This document shows positions 31,497 through 39,686 of a DNA stretch of 64,000 nt, one piece after another. Each line of letters starts with the position of its first letter. Position 1 is the stretch's first letter. Position numbers and translations under genes: made by a program. Source of the DNA: Sphingomonadales bacterium. GTDB taxonomy: Bacteria; Pseudomonadota; Alphaproteobacteria; Sphingomonadales; Sphingomonadaceae. The stretch covers positions 1 to 64,000 of the forward strand of contig JACXVD010000006.1 of the NCBI GenBank assembly GCA_014763545.1, read 5' to 3'. The notes beneath the pieces were generated by a model that saw only the letters and a list, made by a program, of their open reading frames with translations, was not told where the DNA came from and did not search any database.

Positions 31497-32783
31497 ATGG
31501 CGGACAAGCAGGCGAAACTGGAACTGGGCGGGCAGACCTACGATCTCCCCGTGCTGGAGGGCTCGACCGGCCCGGACGTGATCGACATCCGCAAGCTCTA
31601 CGGCCAGACGCATGCGTTCACCTATGATCCCGGCTTCACCTCGACCGCGAGCTGCGAAAGCGCGCTGACCTATATCGACGGTGAGGAAGGCGTGCTTCTG
31701 CACCGCGGCTATCCCATCGGGCAGCTGGCCGAACATTCCAGCTTCATGGAAGTTTCCTACCTGCTGCTGAACGGCGAACTGCCGAGCGCGGACGAGCTTT
31801 CGACCTTCGAAAACACCATCACCCGCCACACCATGCTGCATGAGCAGCTGATGACCTTCTATCGCGGTTTCCGCCGCGATGCGCACCCGATGGCGGTGAT
31901 GTGCGGCGTGGTCGGCGCCCTGTCGGCCTTCTACCATGACAGCACCGACATCTCCGACCCGGTGCAGCGCAAGATCGCCAGCCACCGCCTGATTGCGAAG
32001 ATGCCGACGATCGCTGCGATGGCGTATAAATATGCCATCGGCCAGCCGTTCCTCTATCCGGACAACTCGCTGAGCTACACCGGCAACTTCCTGCGCATGA
32101 CCTTCGGCGTGCCGGCCGAGCCCTACGAAATCCACCCGGCGGTGGAACGGGCGATGGACCGCATCTTCATCCTGCATGCCGACCACGAACAGAACGCCTC
32201 GACTTCGACCGTGCGCCTTGCCGGTTCGTCGGGCGCGAATCCGTTCGCCTGCATCGCCGCGGGCATCGCATGCCTGTGGGGCCCGGCGCATGGCGGCGCG
32301 AATGAAGCTGCACTCAACATGCTTCACGAGATCGGCACGCCCGACAAGATTCCGCACTATATCGACCGCGCGAAGGACAAGAACGATCCGTTCCGCCTGA
32401 TGGGCTTCGGCCACCGCGTCTACAAGAACTACGACCCGCGTGCGACGGTGATGCAGAAGACCGTGCGCGAAGTGTTCGATGCGTTGAAGGTGACCGATCC
32501 GGTCTTCGAAACCGCGCTGCGGCTGGAAGAAATCGCGCTGAGCGATCCCTACTTCGCCGAAAAGAAGCTGTTCCCCAACGTCGACTTCTATTCGGGCATC
32601 ATTCTCTCGGCGATCGGCTTCCCGACCACCATGTTCACCGCGCTGTTCGCGCTGGCGCGCACGGTCGGCTGGGTCGCGCAGTGGAACGAAATGATCAGCG
32701 ATCCCGGCCAGAAGATCGGCCGTCCGCGCCAGCTCTACACCGGCCCGACGCAGCGCGATTACGTGCCCGTCGAGCAGCGCTGA
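31497..32783 (+). CDS. gltA: Citrate synthase
   Basis: 428 residues, the hexameric type with an N-terminal beta domain. AAGGAGA SD. Active-site segments [37 protein letters not shown] and the late Asp in NVDFYSG are intact. Condenses acetyl-CoA and oxaloacetate, drawing on the acetyl-CoA made by PdhAB. Confidence 0.97.
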
Positions 32784-32996: not shown

Positions 32997-34388
32997 CTAT
33001 TCGGCGGGGGCTGACGGCAATTCGAGGGTAAAGCGCGCGCCCTGGCCGGGCGCGCTTTCCACCGTCAGCTCGCCACCCATCGCGCGAGCAAGGCGGCGCG
33101 AGATATACAGGCCGAGGCCCGAACCGCCGTCACCGCTGCGCCCCAGTCGCTCGAATTTCTCGAACACCTTGGCCTGTTGCGCCTCGCTGAGGCCCTGCCC
33201 CTGGTCCGCGACGGTGATCCGCGCACGGTCGGCAGCGGATTCGAGGCGCAGCCAAACCTGCGACCCTTCCGGCGAATAGTTGATCGCATTCCCGATCAGA
33301 TTGAGCAGTACCTGCAGCACCCGGCGAAATTCGCCGATTGCAGGCAAGCTCTCGCCAGTCTGCGGGGCGACCAGCACCACGCGCTTTTCCTGCGCCCTGA
33401 CGCCCAGGATGCCAGTAGCCCGGCGGGCGACATCGGCGAGGTCGATCCGGTCGGGCGCGGTGGTGAAGCCTTCGGCCTCCACAACCTCGAGATCGGACAG
33501 GTCGTCGATCAGTGCCAGCAGATGCTGCCCGGCGCTGGCAATGTCGGCGGCATAGGCGCTGTATTCGTCCGCCAGCGGCCCGGCGAGACGCGCCCGGATC
33601 GTTTCCGCATTGGCGATGATCCGCGCGATCGGCTTGCGCAGCACCGGCGACAGGTCGCGCCCCAGCGAGGGGGTTGCGAGGCGCTTCTCGGCAGTCGCCT
33701 CGGCCTCTGGCTTCGGCGCGACGCGCGGCAGTGGCGTATCGGCGATCAGGTGCAGGTCGAAACCCGCGCTACCCGGTTCGGGCTGCCCATGCGGGACGAG
33801 CACCGCTCGCCACTCGCGGTCCGACCCCGGGATATGGCAGCGCGATCCGTCGAGCAGGCGCCAGTGAAGCGGCTGGGCGTGGCTGCTGCCCGGCAGGTCG
33901 AGGAACGAGGTCCACGGCCGCCCGGCACCATCGCGCATCGCCTGCGCCAGTTCGGCGAGGTCAGGCGCGCTGCATTCCACGGCAAGCACGTTCTGGCGGG
34001 CATCGAGCCGCGCGCTGAGTTCGGCCAGTGTCCGGTCGATTTCGAGCACGCGCTCGGCCGCCCGGGTTTCACCTTCGGCCGCCATCGGGCTCGCCTGCCA
34101 GTTGGCGACGCCAATCTCGCAGCCCTCGCCTTCACCCGCAGTGGGCTCGATTTCGACCCAGGCGGAGATCAGTTCGTCGCCATCGAATGCGCGGATCTTG
34201 CGAGCAAGACGCAGGCCATAGGCGCGCGACTTGCGCACCAGTTCCAGCAATTCGGGAATCGCGATGACACCCGGCATATCCCCGCCGCAACGGCGCTGCA
34301 GCCCCGACAGGAGTTCGTCGGCTTCGACCAGCCGGTCCTGCCCATCGGTCTTGCCCTGGGCGATATATGCAGTCGTCACCAGCGCCAT
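32997..34388 (-). CDS. Histidine-kinase-like protein lacking the phospho-acceptor histidine
   Basis: 463 residues, no TM segment. An N-terminal sensor-like region (1-235) is followed by a HisKA-like dimerisation segment in which the expected S-H-E-L-R-T-P-L reads Ser247-Pro248-Val-Leu-Arg-Lys-Pro-Ile: the His is Pro. The continuation GPLADEYSAYAADI...GQHLLALIDDL matches the PleC/DivL-like HisKA group well. The ATP-binding domain is intact with N box NLIGNAINYSP, G1 DQGQGL, F box FEKFERL and G2 GSGLGLYIS. It may be a pseudokinase that controls another kinase, as DivL (His to Tyr) does in Caulobacter. Stop 4 bases from the convergent small membrane gene; 3 bases after a DUF2336-like gene. Confidence 0.8.
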   Translation of the reverse strand: MALVTTAYIAQGKTDGQDRLVEADELLSGLQRRCGGDMPGVIAIPELLELVRKSRAYGLRLARKIRAFDGDELISAWVEIEPTAGEGEGCEIGVANWQASPMAAEGETRAAERVLEIDRTLAELSARLDARQNVLAVECSAPDLAELAQAMRDGAGRPWTSFLDLPGSSHAQPLHWRLLDGSRCHIPGSDREWRAVLVPHGQPEPGSAGFDLHLIADTPLPRVAPKPEAEATAEKRLATPSLGRDLSPVLRKPIARIIANAETIRARLAGPLADEYSAYAADIASAGQHLLALIDDLSDLEVVEAEGFTTAPDRIDLADVARRATGILGVRAQEKRVVLVAPQTGESLPAIGEFRRVLQVLLNLIGNAINYSPEGSQVWLRLESAADRARITVADQGQGLSEAQQAKVFEKFERLGRSGDGGSGLGLYISRRLARAMGGELTVESAPGQGARFTLELPSAPAE

Positions 34389-34391
34389 GGA

Positions 34392-35366
34392 TCAGCCCAC
34401 CTGCCAGCTCGAACTGGTCGAGCGCGAGGAGGCCAGCATCGCCGCCGCCCGATCGGAGCGCAACTGGTCGAACCCATCGGGAAGCGAAACTTCGGGATGG
34501 AGATAGGCGAACTGCTCCTCCACCTCCTTGGGCTTGAGACCGGCGGCGCGCAGCCCCAGCGCCAGTCGCGCCAGCTGGCGGTCGTTGGTCGAAATGACCG
34601 CGAGGTCGCGATCCTGGTGCGATGCGATCGCCAGCGTGGTGAGGAACAGCGCCACCCCGGCATGGCCGACCGAAAGCGCAACCTGCGCCCCGTTGCCCAT
34701 TGCCATCACCAGCCGGGTCATCAGGCCGAGCCGGCTGGCGCTCTCGTCATATTTGCCGCGCAATGCCTGGTGCGCCTCGGGCGAATTGCTCGTCCCGTGA
34801 TGCGCAAGGAAGCCGTCAAGGCTCAGCAATGCGTGATGAAACAGGTCGCCCGGCAATTCGCCGAGCGGCAATTCCATGCGCCGTTGCTGCTGGTTGAAGC
34901 GCGCCTGCGCCGCCAGTGCCGCCATTGCCACGCTGGCCGTCGCGCTTTCATCCGACGCGATCAGGGCCTGCAACAGCGGCGACAGGACCGGGTCGATTGC
35001 GCTGCGCCGCTCGAGACGTTGGGCAAGCTGCGATTCGAGTGCGAGCGCATGGCAATGGCACAGGAATGGCGGATGATTGGCGAGATGTTCCGCCAGCATG
35101 GCCGCCTGCTGCGAGGCGAAACCGCGCGGATCGGGATTTCCGCTCGCTTCGGCATGGATCAGCAGCAGTTGCCGCGCGACATCGGTCGTCATCCCGCGCA
35201 CGCGGCTGACGATTTCGTCGCTGAACAGCGAATGGTCGTGATTGGCCAGCAAGTGGCCCATGATCGGCCCGATTGTGCCGAGCACGACATCGCCATGCGC
35301 CAGCTCGTCACGCAGGATCCCTTCGACGGGAATGTCGGTCGCTTGTTTCATGCCGGCTTCGATCAT
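34392..35366 (-). CDS. DUF2336-like protein
   Basis: 324 residues from ATG 35366 (ATG 35351 is also possible). All helical, no TM or signal; Ala/Leu-rich HEAT-like repeats, with a C-terminal basic region LRSDRAAAMLASSRS. I recognise the pattern of DUF2336, an alphaproteobacterial family of unknown function often near sensor kinases. It is 3 bases upstream of the pseudokinase gene, so the two are probably co-expressed. A TTAA-N7-TTAG site lies 24 bases upstream of the start. Confidence 0.65.
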   Translation of the reverse strand: MIEAGMKQATDIPVEGILRDELAHGDVVLGTIGPIMGHLLANHDHSLFSDEIVSRVRGMTTDVARQLLLIHAEASGNPDPRGFASQQAAMLAEHLANHPPFLCHCHALALESQLAQRLERRSAIDPVLSPLLQALIASDESATASVAMAALAAQARFNQQQRRMELPLGELPGDLFHHALLSLDGFLAHHGTSNSPEAHQALRGKYDESASRLGLMTRLVMAMGNGAQVALSVGHAGVALFLTTLAIASHQDRDLAVISTNDRQLARLALGLRAAGLKPKEVEEQFAYLHPEVSLPDGFDQLRSDRAAAMLASSRSTSSSWQVG

Positions 35367-35389
35367 TGTCCGCTCATAGCCTGATGTGG

Positions 35390-35404
35390 TTAAGCGCGGG
35401 TTAG
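35390..35404 (-). promoter_or_regulatory. Candidate CtrA box upstream of the DUF2336 gene
   Basis: Read on the minus strand: CTAA-N7-TTAACC, one mismatch from the CtrA consensus TTAA-N7-TTAAC. It ends 24 bases before the ATG and overlaps the end of the upstream gene. Confidence 0.45.
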
Positions 35405-36601
35405 CCGCTTGCGCAGCGAAAGCCATAGCGTCGCAGCCATGGCAACCACCGCCAACAGGCGGATCGCGGGATGCAGCACACCGCCGAATCCGGCCAGTGC
35501 CAGCACCATCGCCAGCAGTATCCGGTCGCGAGCCAGTGCGGCAATCCGTTCCTCGCCGCTCGATTCCAGAATATGCAGCCATCCCAGCAACATGATCGGC
35601 GCGAACAGGGCATGATCCCATGCCGCGTTGGGCCAGGGCAGGCTGGCGAGGAACAGGAAGCCAGCGTCGATCGCGAGCGGCACCAGCAAGTCTGCCCGGC
35701 GCCGCGCCGGCCTGCCGTCACGTTCCAGTCGATCGAGCGCGGCGGCTCCGGCGAAGAGGAAGGCCGAGCCCGCGAGCCCCACCATCCCCGCGCTCACCGA
35801 CATCGCCCAGCCCCACGCCAGCGAGCATCCCAGCACCACCAGCGCCAGCGCCTCCACCGCACGCTTGCCGAAGCCGCGGTCGAACAGCGATTCCGCAAGC
35901 CGTGCAGTGGTACGGTCGGCAAGCGCGATGCCGGGCGCGAACCACCCCTGCGCGGCAAGATTGCGCTCCATCCGGCGCCGGGCGGCCGCTTCGACCTGCG
36001 GAGCCTCGCGGGCCAGCAGCCATTCGCCCGAATCGAGCGTGGTTGCAGGCAGTTCCACGCAACGCGCGCCGCCCTGCAGGGCGATGCGCAGCAGCGCAGA
36101 TGCCGGTTCCACATCGCCGGGCAGCTCGGTTAGCCGCTCGACTGCCTGCCCCCGCAGCACCATCGCCCCGGCCCAGGCGCGCTCGCCGTCGATCCGTTCA
36201 TAGCCGAGCCGGATGGCCGGATCGGCGGGCAGCACAAGGACGCCGGCACGATCGCCCAGCGCCTCCTCGATCTCGGCGGCATCGGCAATAATGCAGTCAC
36301 CCAGCACCAGCAGCTCGTCCGCCGCACTGACCAGGCCGGAAAGCGGCCGCACCCCGTTGATGGCATGGAAACTGGCACCGCGCGCCTCGGCGGCGTGCTG
36401 CAATTCGAGCACGTCAGGCCCGATACCGTGGCAGAATACCACGACCCGCTGCGCGCCCAGTGCGAGAACGACATCGACTTGATGCGCCGCAAGCGTCCGG
36501 GCGCCCATGCGCGCGAAGGCAAGCGGGCCGACGTCACCGTCGCTGCCCTGCCCAGCCCCGCTGGCGGCTTCTGCCATCGTGGAAATCAGCGCGACGCGCA
36601 C
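35390..36601 (-). CDS. Orphan protein: nucleotidyltransferase-like N-terminus plus membrane C-terminus
   Basis: 403 residues from GTG 36601, which has the SD GAGGGGAG at 7 bases; a TTG six bases earlier is too close to the SD. Residues 1-230 look like a Rossmann-like sugar-nucleotidyltransferase core (RTLAAHQVDVVLALGAQRVV..., LLVLGDCIIAD) but the usual GGxGxR loop is not seen. The rest has four or five TM helices. The layout recalls fused cytidylyltransferase/CDP-alcohol transferases, but the CDP-alcohol motif (DGxxAR...GxxxD) is not found. Function unknown. Confidence 0.6.
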   Translation of the reverse strand: MRVALISTMAEAASGAGQGSDGDVGPLAFARMGARTLAAHQVDVVLALGAQRVVVFCHGIGPDVLELQHAAEARGASFHAINGVRPLSGLVSAADELLVLGDCIIADAAEIEEALGDRAGVLVLPADPAIRLGYERIDGERAWAGAMVLRGQAVERLTELPGDVEPASALLRIALQGGARCVELPATTLDSGEWLLAREAPQVEAAARRRMERNLAAQGWFAPGIALADRTTARLAESLFDRGFGKRAVEALALVVLGCSLAWGWAMSVSAGMVGLAGSAFLFAGAAALDRLERDGRPARRRADLLVPLAIDAGFLFLASLPWPNAAWDHALFAPIMLLGWLHILESSGEERIAALARDRILLAMVLALAGFGGVLHPAIRLLAVVAMAATLWLSLRKRLTRA

Positions 36602-36672
36602 CCGCAACTCCCCTCATTCGCGGAGGGGGTTCTAGGCGGAGGCCATGCCGCTGCCAAGCAGCAGGCGGCGGC

Positions 36673-36981
36673 TCAACCGTAATGCGCGGCGAATTCCTGG
36701 ACGAACTTGCTGATCCGCCGCAGCACCACCGGATCGCCCGGTGCGCCTTCCAGCGCTTCGTCGGCGAGGTCGATCAGGTCGGTGGCATGGAAACTGGCTG
36801 CTAGCCCCTTCAGCCGCATGGCGGCAACCGCCCAGTTACCGTCGCAACGCGCCCGGTGCAGCAGGTCAACCTGCCGTTCCAGGCTTTCGGCAAAGGCCGC
36901 GCGCAGTTCCGCCATCAGCGCAGGATCGTCTCCCGCCGCCGCTGCCAGAGTCGCGTCAAGGGCACCGCTTTCATAGGCCAT
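36673..36981 (-). CDS. Hpt-like four-helix protein lacking the phospho-histidine
   Basis: 102 residues from ATG 36981. The sequence has the Hpt (histidine phosphotransfer) signature region NWAVAAM55RLKGLAASF, but the residue that is the phosphorylated His in H-x-L-K-G is Met55. The rest is helical as expected for Hpt. Divergent from the coiled-coil gene with 71 bases between. It could bind response regulators without passing on phosphate. Confidence 0.65.
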   Translation of the reverse strand: MAYESGALDATLAAAAGDDPALMAELRAAFAESLERQVDLLHRARCDGNWAVAAMRLKGLAASFHATDLIDLADEALEGAPGDPVVLRRISKFVQEFAAHYG

Positions 36982-37006
36982 CGCCGCTATCTCTAGCGCG
37001 CTTTGG

Positions 37007-37022
37007 TTAAGGCGGGGTTTAA
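37007..37022. promoter_or_regulatory. Candidate CtrA-like site between the Hpt-like and coiled-coil genes
   Basis: GGTTAA and TTTAA here give TTAA-N8-TTAA (TTAACC on the minus strand), one base longer than the CtrA consensus spacing. It sits in the 71-bp divergent space. Confidence 0.3.
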
Positions 37023-37052
37023 TGTCGCGATTTTCGTGGTAGATTCCACGCC

Positions 37053-39686
37053 ATGAACGGGGGATCTCGCATCGTCGCCTTCGGTTCCGGGGAGGAATCG
37101 CGGCCCACATCACCGTCCGCCACGGACGACACGCTGGAGCTCACCAGCGCTCAGGAAGCCGCGCCCGCAGACTGGGATGAGGGCGAATGGGCTGACGAAC
37201 AGCCTGCCAGGCGTGCCGCAGACTGGGCAATCCCTGCCCTTGCCATATTGGCTGTTGCCGGATGGACGGCGTTCTTCGGCTGGACCTACCGGGCCGAAAT
37301 GCTGGCCGGCGCCGCGCCGCAACAATGGACGGGCTGGATCAGCGCCTGGGCGATCCCGGTGCTGCTTGTGGTATCGCTCTGGCTGCTCTCCATGCGTCTC
37401 AGTCGCCGCGAGGCAGCCCGTTTCGGCGACGCGTCGCTGGCACTGCGCCGTGAAGTCGATGCGCTCGAAACGCGCCTGTCCAACGTCAATCGCGAGCTCA
37501 GCCTCGCCCGCGAGTTTCTCGGCGCCCAGAGCCGCGAGCTGGATTCGCTGGGCCGGATCGCCAGCGAGAAGCTGTCGCGCCATGCCGAAACCTTGCAGTC
37601 GCTGGTCAAGACCAACGGCGATCAGGTCGAATCGATCGCCAGCGTGTCCGGCATCGCGATGCAGAACATGAACAAGCTGCGCGACGATTTGCCGGTTATC
37701 GCCAATTCCGCGCGCGATGTGACCAGCCAGATTGCCAATGCCGGGCGAACCGCCAGCGGCCAGCTGGGCGAGATGATCTCGGGTTTCGAGCGACTCAACC
37801 AGTTCGGTGAGGCCAGCGAGCGCCAGGTCGCTGCGCTACGTACGAAAGTCGACGCCGCGCTGGCCGCCTTCGAGGCGCAGGCGGCGCAGATGGAAGACAT
37901 CACCGCCGCGCGGTTCGCCGCGCTGGGCGACAAGAGCGAGGCATTCCGCACCGAATTGGACGCGCGCGAAGTCGAAGCGCTGGCCGCACTCCGCGCCAGG
38001 GCCGATCGCCTGCGCGACGAACTCGCCCCCGCACGCGAATTGCTGGAAAGCGAAGAGGAAGAAATCCTCAAGTCGCTGCAGGCCCGGATCAACGCCATCC
38101 GTGAAGGTGCCGCCACCGTCGGCCGCGCCCTGTCCGAAGGTCAGCAGAGCGCGGTGAGTGCATGGCAGGCGCAGGTGGACCGGGTTCGGGCCGATCTGGT
38201 CGAGGCACTGGCAGAAGTATCGCGCATCGACGCGATGGCGCTCGAGAACGCGCAGACGCGGCTCGCGGAATTGCGGCAGGAAGCGCAGCAGGTCGACGAT
38301 ACGATGGCCGAACGCAACCGCGCTTTCGACGCGCAACTCGCGGCGCGCCGTGCCGAGGCGGAGAAATTCGCCGAGGCCAGCGCCGCCCAGCTTACCAGCC
38401 GCCTCGCCGAGATCGACGCCAGCCTGACGCAGCGCCGCGCCGAACAGATCGAACATGCCGAGGCGCTCGCGGCACAGGGCGATGCGATCGCCGGGCGGCT
38501 GGCCGAATTGCGCGACACGATCGCGCAGGTGACCGGACAGGGCAGCGAGGCGGAAGCGAAGCTTGCCGCAGGCATCGCCGCCCTCGCCCAGCAATTGGGC
38601 GAGACGCGCGACAGGTTGGAAGGTACCGACACGGCGATTGCCGAGCTGACCGAATCCGGCATTCGCCTGCTCGAAATCATCCAGTCCGGAGCGCGCCATT
38701 CGGCAGAGGATTTGCCCAAGGCAATCGGCGTGGCCGAAGGCCGTCTGTCGGAGGTCGTATCCGGTGCCGAGCGGCTGGAACTCATGCTCGGCTCGGCCAG
38801 CGAGAAGGGCGCCGCCCTCTCCAGCTACGTGATCTCCGCCCGCGAGGCGAGCGCTGCCGCGGGCAAGGAAGCCGAGGAATTGCACGGCAGGCTGGCCGAA
38901 GCGGGCGAAACCCACGCACAACGGCTCGAAGCGCTGCAGTCCAGGCTGGCGGCACTCGGCGAAGACAGTCGCGCCATCGCGGATAACGCACAGGGGAATT
39001 TGCGCGAGGCGCTCGAAACGCTGCAGCAGGCGACGCAGGAAGCCGTCGCCTCGCTCGACACCACCACGACCGCAGGGATCGGGGCGCTGGCCGAACGGGT
39101 CGGGGCCGAAGCAGCCGAAGCAGTGGATCGTGCGTTGCGGTTCAAGACCACCGAGGCGATCGCACAACTCGAACAGGCCGCCGCGCATTCGGCTGGCGTC
39201 AGTCGCGAAGCCGCGGTGCAATTGCGCGACCAGCTGGCCAAGGTCAACGAACTGGCGGGCAATCTCGAAACCCGCGTCCAGCGCGCGCGCGAACGGGCGC
39301 AGGAACAGGTCGACAATGATTTCTCGCGCCGGGTTGCCTTGATCACCGAAGCGCTCAATTCGAACGCCATCGACATTGCCAAGGCGATGTCGAGCGAGGT
39401 GACCGATACGGCCTGGGCCAGCTATCTACGCGGCGATCGCGGCATCTTCACTCGCCGCGCGGTCAGGCTGCTCGAAAACACCGAGGCGCGCGACATCGCG
39501 GAGATTTACGACACCGATCCCGATTTCCGCGAACATGTCAGCCGCTACATCCACGATTTCGAAGCGATGCTGCGGACCATGCTGTCCACGCGCGATGGCA
39601 ATGCGCTGGGCGTAACGCTGCTCAGCAGCGATATGGGCAAGCTCTATGTCGCGCTCGCCCAGGCGATCGAACGGCTGCGCGACTGA
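37053..39686 (+). CDS. Large membrane-anchored coiled-coil protein, TipN-like architecture
   Basis: 877 residues. An acidic cytoplasmic head (1-55), two TM helices (about 58-78 and 93-114), then a coiled coil of Ala/Glu/Arg/Leu heptads from about 120 to 775, and a compact C-terminal cap of about 100 residues (DTAWASYLRGDRG, RRAVRLLENTEARD, RYIHDFEAMLRTML). Length, the two N-terminal TM helices and the coiled coil match the Caulobacter birth-scar/polarity protein TipN (about 880 residues). Homology is inferred from architecture only. It lies divergent from the Hpt-like gene, beside the pseudokinase. Confidence 0.7.
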   Translation: MNGGSRIVAFGSGEESRPTSPSATDDTLELTSAQEAAPADWDEGEWADEQPARRAADWAIPALAILAVAGWTAFFGWTYRAEMLAGAAPQQWTGWISAWAIPVLLVVSLWLLSMRLSRREAARFGDASLALRREVDALETRLSNVNRELSLAREFLGAQSRELDSLGRIASEKLSRHAETLQSLVKTNGDQVESIASVSGIAMQNMNKLRDDLPVIANSARDVTSQIANAGRTASGQLGEMISGFERLNQFGEASERQVAALRTKVDAALAAFEAQAAQMEDITAARFAALGDKSEAFRTELDAREVEALAALRARADRLRDELAPARELLESEEEEILKSLQARINAIREGAATVGRALSEGQQSAVSAWQAQVDRVRADLVEALAEVSRIDAMALENAQTRLAELRQEAQQVDDTMAERNRAFDAQLAARRAEAEKFAEASAAQLTSRLAEIDASLTQRRAEQIEHAEALAAQGDAIAGRLAELRDTIAQVTGQGSEAEAKLAAGIAALAQQLGETRDRLEGTDTAIAELTESGIRLLEIIQSGARHSAEDLPKAIGVAEGRLSEVVSGAERLELMLGSASEKGAALSSYVISAREASAAAGKEAEELHGRLAEAGETHAQRLEALQSRLAALGEDSRAIADNAQGNLREALETLQQATQEAVASLDTTTTAGIGALAERVGAEAAEAVDRALRFKTTEAIAQLEQAAAHSAGVSREAAVQLRDQLAKVNELAGNLETRVQRARERAQEQVDNDFSRRVALITEALNSNAIDIAKAMSSEVTDTAWASYLRGDRGIFTRRAVRLLENTEARDIAEIYDTDPDFREHVSRYIHDFEAMLRTMLSTRDGNALGVTLLSSDMGKLYVALAQAIERLRD

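Follow-up and report, generated by a model that had tools for sequence, protein, structure and literature searches.

A conserved Sphingomonadales gene block with a pseudo-histidine kinase, a histidine-less HPt-like protein and CtrA-like promoter boxes

The closest described counterparts of the locus considered here come from two lines of work on alphaproteobacteria. DivL reads a phosphorylated receiver without kinase or phosphatase activity, yet keeps its ATP boxes (PMC4211667). GPR of Agrobacterium, a protein of 2115 amino acids (aa) with two membrane segments near the N terminus, is indispensable for polar growth (PMC8262873) and has been described as similar to Caulobacter TipN (PMC8546619) and as analogous to this 882-aa protein (PMC13170164). 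In Sphingomonadales the CckA-ChpT-CtrA pathway is kept, and the DivJ-PleC-DivK system has been described as degenerate or missing (PMC2877005). Here we describe a block of five genes at positions 32997-39686 of a stretch of 64,000 nucleotides (nt) from a Sphingomonadales bacterium (contig JACXVD010000006.1; hereafter the window), encoding a pseudo-histidine kinase, a diverged DUF2336-type protein, a membrane protein, an HPt-like protein and a long coiled coil. An earlier note on this DNA had proposed a non-catalytic polarity or cell-cycle module under CtrA control, and all five open reading frames are present where it had placed them. The block is conserved, lacks its acceptor histidines and has CtrA-like boxes in its promoters, and its kinase and hpt genes are missing together with CtrA in one genome; whatever we say beyond this is inference.

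Gene order, whose conservation the earlier note had proposed to check, is kept. We compared 80 contigs, the best 80 of 421 relatives and a sample biased to close relatives; among the matches listed, the closest belong to Sphingomonadaceae/Erythrobacteraceae. All five genes occur in the same order and orientation in 65 of the 70 contigs that span gltA to the coiled coil, the exceptions being L109 and L115, where hpt was undetected, and L156, L163 and L168, where the membrane gene was. A second sample of 25 family loci likewise kept the order, with all five genes in 15 and fewer in deeper branches; the membrane gene was also undetected in L038. Read from the centre, hpt, the membrane gene, the DUF2336-type gene and the kinase gene follow one another on the minus strand, and the coiled-coil gene diverges from a common promoter. 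The DUF2336-type gene touches or overlaps the kinase gene, with an extrapolated median spacing of -7 nt in the 80-contig set. The flanks, which from their sequences we take to be gltX-gltA on one side and DUF1467-RNase J (rnj)-coaX on the other, are syntenic as well, so part of the conservation of the block may be inertia; in L044 the block is intact although gltA and rnj were not found in that stretch. The literature searched, with subscription journals mostly outside its coverage, gave no account of this cluster.

The kinase-like protein (P0001; 32997-34388, minus strand; 463 aa) is recognized by Pfam as HATPase_c (5.6e-29) and, just passing, as HisKA (3.5e-06). It has the order PAS-PAS-DHp-CA and no strongly hydrophobic segment, and the secondary structure of its AF2 model (mean pLDDT 85, pTM 0.47) comprises two PAS folds, a DHp and a CA domain. 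Its H box reads LSPVLRKP against the canonical SHELRTP, which places Pro248 at the phospho-acceptor position. This position is occupied in 97 aligned kinase rows by Pro (86), Ala (2), Arg (2), Asn, Lys, Asp and Gln (one each) and His (2), with one gap from a truncated kinase (L105); the rows are not all independent, since the contigs of L094 and L098 are those of L031 and L032. It is in the deeper branches that N, K, R, D, A or Q is found, and His occurs in L055, as part of a canonical SHELRTP, and in L053, within HSFKPS. In 95-96 of the 97 rows (one row being the gap) the ATP boxes N, G1 and G2 retain their key Asn, Asp and Gly; other N-box positions are more variable. With the acceptor His absent and the ATP boxes intact, the protein fits the term pseudokinase used in the earlier note. 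Of the stretches compared, the core of the altered H box has the highest mean majority (0.86; in the PAS domains it is 0.57-0.59; 94 rows, without L055, L054 and L105). The ratio of nonsynonymous to synonymous substitution rates (dN/dS) is 0.12 against a same-genus relative, a rough figure at dS > 1, and no stop interrupts the matched stretch in 24 of 26 family kinase matches.

A tree of DHp-CA sequences (53 rows, sampling every sixth of the 71 kinases from the 80-contig set) groups L055 beside the remainder of the clade (support 0.71, and 0.985 for the clade when L055 is left out), and the canonical kinases of other Sphingomonadales families come next. The canonical kinase of L055 sits at the equivalent place beside gltA. 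From this placement and the canonical outgroup, it is most likely that a working kinase lost its acceptor His and was then retained. Its source may have been of the DivJ/PleC kind: for the canonical kinases nearest to it, DivJ and PdhS models come up alongside many others, every one of them far short of its cut-off.

P0001 is like Caulobacter DivL in combining PAS domains with DHp-CA, a replaced acceptor His, kept ATP boxes and a link to CtrA, and the DivL structure 4q20 matches it in sequence and fold, as one of many kinases. It differs in having two PAS domains and no strongly hydrophobic segment, in carrying Pro and not the Tyr characteristic of DivL, and in that its gene adjoins a coiled-coil polarity-type gene. 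Tyr is not absolute for DivL, because Magnetospirillum DivL has Ala at the acceptor position (PMC4211667). We set aside P0001 as the genome's own DivL, since a separate kinase of the same genome (L065) has the Tyr-type H box SYEFRTPL and is DivL-like by that motif alone.

The HPt-like protein (P0004; 36673-36981, minus strand; about 102 aa) matches PF01627 weakly (0.059), as do its relatives, of which 9 of 18 match at E <= 1 (best 0.0011). Met55 stands where the acceptor His of xHxLKG is expected, and none of 94 aligned rows has His there (M 52, L 24, Q 8, A 3, E 3, W 2, R 1, D 1), in keeping with the earlier designation as a pseudo-Hpt. RCDGNW and much of LKGLAASF are nearly fixed, and dN/dS against a same-genus relative is 0.16 (dS > 1, rough). 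P0004 resembles HPt proteins in its LKGxAxSF helix, in its size and in occupying the position of His-bearing homologues in sister families, and differs from them in that the acceptor His is gone.

Those sister families indicate what the locus may have been. Among 15 usable order-level loci (L247-L254, L257, L259-L263 and L265), a receiver and a second HPt-like gene face the coiled coil in 14. Not counted are L255, L256, L258 and L264, whose contigs stop at the coiled coil, and no usable locus came from G037 (weak match only), G053 or G058. A first HPt lies beside the coiled coil, or one small gene off, in 9 of the 15, with His in 9 of 9; with a profile built from eight of the same loci, no first HPt was detected in the other six (L249, L259-L263). 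The literature searched gave nothing on such a receiver and second HPt unit facing a TipN-like gene. Within the family of the window, the HPt His is kept in G006 and G008, and the order-level receiver has a strong match among the 35 family genomes in G008 only (7.1e-50; next best 4.2e-11), a poor assembly (86% complete, 7% contaminated); the other genomes give weak, generic matches or no match. In the wider class, such an HPt stands beside the coiled coil in 1 of 20 loci (L295). Taken together, the order-level arrangement and the His of G006 and G008 suggest that in the ancestral unit of the order the coiled coil stood opposite an HPt, a receiver and another HPt. The order-level relay genes, with a family member whose kinase keeps its canonical His, give the module the look of a phosphorelay locus that decayed but was retained by selection. 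A small protein of about 100 aa without a Pfam match is often found near the order-level HPt and receiver genes.

Two CtrA-like sites had been pointed out in the earlier note, and both are there: CTAACCCGCGCTTAACC at 35388-35404 on the minus strand, about 21 nt before the DUF2336-type start, and TTAA-N8-TTAA at 37007-37022 in the divergent hpt/coiled-coil promoter, the latter with a spacing of N8 and not the N7 of the consensus TTAA-N7-TTAA(C) (PMC6180460). Within the window, TTAA-N7-TTAAC with at most one mismatch gives three matches (two of them one site read in both directions) where 0.57 would be expected. Since 4 of 100 shuffles give as many, the window by itself is weak evidence; it is conservation across loci that makes the evidence strong. 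When TTAA-N7-TTAACC was scored over 10 positions within 120 nt upstream, counting scores of at least 8, a box was found before the DUF2336-type gene in 71 of 73 cases, before the coiled-coil gene in 75 of 78 and before hpt in 74 of 76 (the last two being one common site) in the 80-contig set. The eight control sets, two of them the module's own membrane and kinase genes, gave 3/75 (membrane), 2/71 (kinase), 0/68 (gltA), 0/65 (gltX), 3/68 (rnj), 4/74 (DUF1467), 0/63 (coaX) and 1/68 (ComEC-like), and shuffled sequences gave 0.6-3.6 matches per set. In the second family sample, the DUF2336 box recurs in 14 of 15 loci against 0-2 of 18-25 in controls. The conserved boxes and their joint absence with CtrA in one genome, described below, uphold the proposed link, and by these sequence criteria CtrA control of the block is well supported.

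GCTATG downstream of the DUF2336 box and TAGATT after the hpt/coiled-coil box, seven nt before the coiled-coil ATG, are presumably -10-like elements. The DUF2336 box also runs over the last codons of the membrane gene, its stop included (35388-35396), which may explain why an LTRA-like end recurs in an otherwise fast-evolving protein.

The coiled-coil protein (37053-39686, plus strand; 877 aa) has hydrophobic segments at 58-77 and 93-117 by hydropathy, a PF01442 apolipoprotein-like match (2.8e-06) below Pfam's own cut-off and a conserved C-terminal domain at about 750-876. Of 289 alphaproteobacterial genomes, 80 match its profile, some of them with proteins of about 2000 aa, and in 60 of these 80 the match covers the C-terminal domain (hand count). 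Two N-terminal segments, a long coiled coil and a conserved C-terminal domain are the traits of TipN and GPR; the resemblance to TipN extends to the apolipoprotein-like match and to length (877 against 882 aa), and that to GPR to the GPR-like length of some profile matches. By these features of architecture the protein fits the earlier label of a TipN-like coiled coil; the locus differs from TipN and GPR in that the divergent partner here is an HPt without His.

The DUF2336 label fared less well. The protein (P0002; 34392-35366, minus strand; 324 aa) has no match to PF10098, nor do its 15 aligned relatives (0 of 16 by Pfam), and PF10098 has no match anywhere in the whole genome; Pfam and NCBIfam gave no name for P0002 or the membrane protein and a sub-threshold one for P0004. 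The positional counterparts in five deeper branches (L045, L046, L050, L053 and L055) are PF10098 proteins (5e-25 to 4e-63), and a profile comparison of the two types (hhalign) gives 96.6% probability and E 6e-10. The name therefore holds by position and remote homology, and P0002 would be a DUF2336 relative that has diverged below Pfam detection. Its AF2 model is all helical (mean pLDDT 88.5), with one hydrophobic stretch at residues 229-249; a search of this model against the PDB (Foldseek, VIA-align) found no convincing match, an absence that is uninformative, and PDB profile searches with the hpt and DUF2336 alignments returned noise only.

The membrane protein (P0003; 35390-36577, minus strand, start codon uncertain) had been taken for an orphan, which it is not. 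Its family profile matches the membrane part of 4mnd, a bifunctional inositol-phosphate cytidylyltransferase/CDP-alcohol phosphotransferase (IPCT/DIPPS) and its best PDB relative by profile (E 4.6e-07, a score raised by the inclusion of L050), and the L050 relative itself keeps a PF01066 match (3.1e-10; 1 of 21 members). The CDP-alcohol phosphotransferase motif is DxxDGxxAR...GxxxDxxxD. In the alignment, DxxDGxxAR is not seen in the window copy, which alone has no Pfam match, and by our own reading even L050 has lost a later Asp of the motif; the N-terminal part is weakly nucleotidyltransferase-like (NTP_transf_3 in 1 of 21 members, 0.042). P0003 is thus a decayed CDP-alcohol phosphotransferase relative, and its dN/dS of 0.30 is the highest of the five genes (dS > 1, rough). 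In L050 (9848-15793), genes for a nucleotidyltransferase and an inositol-1-phosphate synthase are among those between the DUF2336 and membrane genes, a neighbourhood that suggests an origin of the membrane gene in an inositol-phosphate pathway.

The window genome has its CtrA at G000:C54, and all 26 family genomes with the kinase have a CtrA 80-100% identical to it. Of the nine without the kinase, G014 has no CtrA match at 1e-60, five have matches of 49-72%, the lowest of which may be other regulators, G006 has one of 82%, and G028 and G029 of 88-89%. G014 is 100% complete by estimate, in 60 contigs, and nested within the clade when a tree is built from four flanking genes, where it joins G033 with support 0.89. 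It lacks a kinase orthologue (best 3.4e-19), hpt and the box, as well as any DUF2336-type gene within the 18.5 kilobases fetched (L239, G014:C22:106500-125000), and retains the coiled-coil and membrane genes. It also has no DivK-like match at 1e-18, although close relatives of G014 have both CtrA and a DivK-like gene; absence from a draft assembly is not proof.

The pseudokinase and a DivK-like receiver co-occur, the receiver being found in 25 of 26 genomes with the pseudokinase against 4 of 8 without it (Fisher p 0.007, without G023) or 4 of 9 (p 0.002, including G023). The lineages share descent, so these counts are not independent events. The searches used cut-offs of 1e-20 and 1e-18, and matches of 33-36% identity (G004, G021 and G031) were judged not DivK-like. 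Where a non-canonical kinase occurs together with a match (24 genomes), identity to the Caulobacter query is 46-56%. It is 68% in G013, whose kinase has the canonical His, 68% and 74% in G006 and G008, and 52% in G028 and G029; among the order-level genomes, 22 of 24 lie at 66-81%. Across 20 aligned DivK-like sequences, the acceptor Asp of MDIQ is kept and the first helix differs between classes. Among the family receivers (L302, L296), a canonical class can be told from a strongly diverged one, in which NMKLF is changed to NRKLF or NLKLF.

We tentatively propose, with slightly more doubt than confidence, that the block is a polarity module under CtrA control, descended from a functional phosphorelay locus whose phosphate chemistry has been lost; the earlier claim that it is non-catalytic is borne out by the loss of the phospho-acceptor sites in both kinase and HPt. 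Phosphorylated CtrA would switch on the hpt/coiled-coil and DUF2336-kinase units late in the cell cycle, and the membrane-anchored TipN-like coiled coil would gather at the new pole. There the pseudokinase would act in a DivL-like manner, its DHp/CA surface reading the phosphorylation state of the diverged DivK-like receiver and leaving it unchanged, with the pseudo-HPt and DUF2336-type proteins as docking parts. The output would be phosphate-free feedback, either on CckA-ChpT-CtrA or on pole assembly. In this picture the products may form the kind of scaffold that the earlier note suggested to sense or position the CtrA phosphorelay. As for the partner, the evidence points at least as much to the DivK-like receiver as to CckA, ChpT or CtrA. 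We know of no described case in which a pseudokinase and a pseudo-HPt are kept together under CtrA, and the literature searched gave none.

The citrate synthase gene gltA (31497-32783, plus strand), a conserved flank and candidate member of the module, converges on the pseudokinase gene wherever both were found in the 80-contig set; in L245, which lacks the module, it directly adjoins the coiled-coil gene. Caulobacter citrate synthase CitA restrains CtrA independently of catalysis, an effect that came from a transposon selection in a tipN cpdR double mutant (PMC7083601). The adjacency seen here is no more than suggestive. In a fuller version of our proposal, a kinase and HPt branch that has lost its receiver became a phosphate-free polarity scaffold, which would adjust CtrA by way of the DivK-like receiver that it reads and might take a metabolic input from the neighbouring citrate synthase; we consider this version unlikely.

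Several observations weigh against the proposal. G028 and G029 have CtrA and a DivK-like gene without the pseudokinase, G018 has the pseudokinase and no DivK-like match, and the Caulobacter sequence used as the DivK query may not be exact. The pseudokinase could serve any receiver, the presence of L065 means that the DivL job may already be filled, and L053 has an aligned His at the acceptor position, in a degenerate context. As to the promoters, perfect TTAA-N7-TTAAC is not enriched genome-wide (3 matches against 8 in the reversed control), and in the second family sample the coiled-coil promoter has a box in just 13 of 22 loci. Of 22 other-type loci (the 15 order-level loci and seven family loci lacking the kinase or module), we see no clear box; one of their coiled-coil promoters scores 9/10 and six more 8/10 in a scan of 540 nt, more than four times the length of the main test, so that the two are not strictly equal. 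Finally, the syntenic flanks leave room for inertia. If neighbourhood were merely inherited and each gene had an unrelated role, the conserved gltX-gltA and rnj-coaX flanks and the membrane gene that goes undetected in several genomes would be expected; we think this improbable, given that the block stays together in L044 without a detectable gltA and rnj, that in G014 the coiled coil is kept but kinase and hpt are absent and no DUF2336 gene lies near it, and that the DUF2336-type and kinase genes abut or overlap.

A more serious competitor, which we nevertheless judge somewhat unlikely, is that the module is a CtrA output only, marking the new pole and placing envelope or motility machinery without feedback, with the pseudo-enzymes serving as folds that bind the coiled coil. 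CtrA boxes on both transcription units, a TipN/GPR-type protein in the divergent unit and the essential role of Agrobacterium GPR in polar growth (PMC8262873) all agree with this; a signalling role is the better fit to the lost signalling residues and to the joint occurrence with a DivK-like receiver. The kinase might also be no pseudokinase at all, its intact CA domain carrying out other chemistry such as phosphorylation of a partner in trans, for which the nearly invariant N, G1 and G2 residues in 97 rows and the fixed Pro, in place of random residues, in most rows could speak. We regard this as very unlikely, because the assortment of residues at the site in deeper branches looks like loss and because DivL also keeps its boxes yet lacks kinase activity (PMC4211667). 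Decay into pseudogenes, which the loss of catalytic or acceptor residues in three of the five genes might bring to mind, is scarcely credible and already contradicted by the present results: most family kinase matches (24 of 26) are free of stops in the matched stretch, dN/dS lies at 0.12-0.30 (with dS saturating) and the promoters are conserved.

In summary, the proposal that a CtrA-controlled polarity module arose here by loss of phosphate chemistry suggests ordered steps from a phosphorelay locus to a binding-only locus. If the reading as a phosphate-free scaffold is true, the block would amount to a DivL-type reader invented a second time and independently. The block supplies defined genes and promoters, a probable ancestral state whose residues still work and a lineage in which loss occurred naturally, and it makes the coupling of polarity to CtrA in Sphingomonadales testable.

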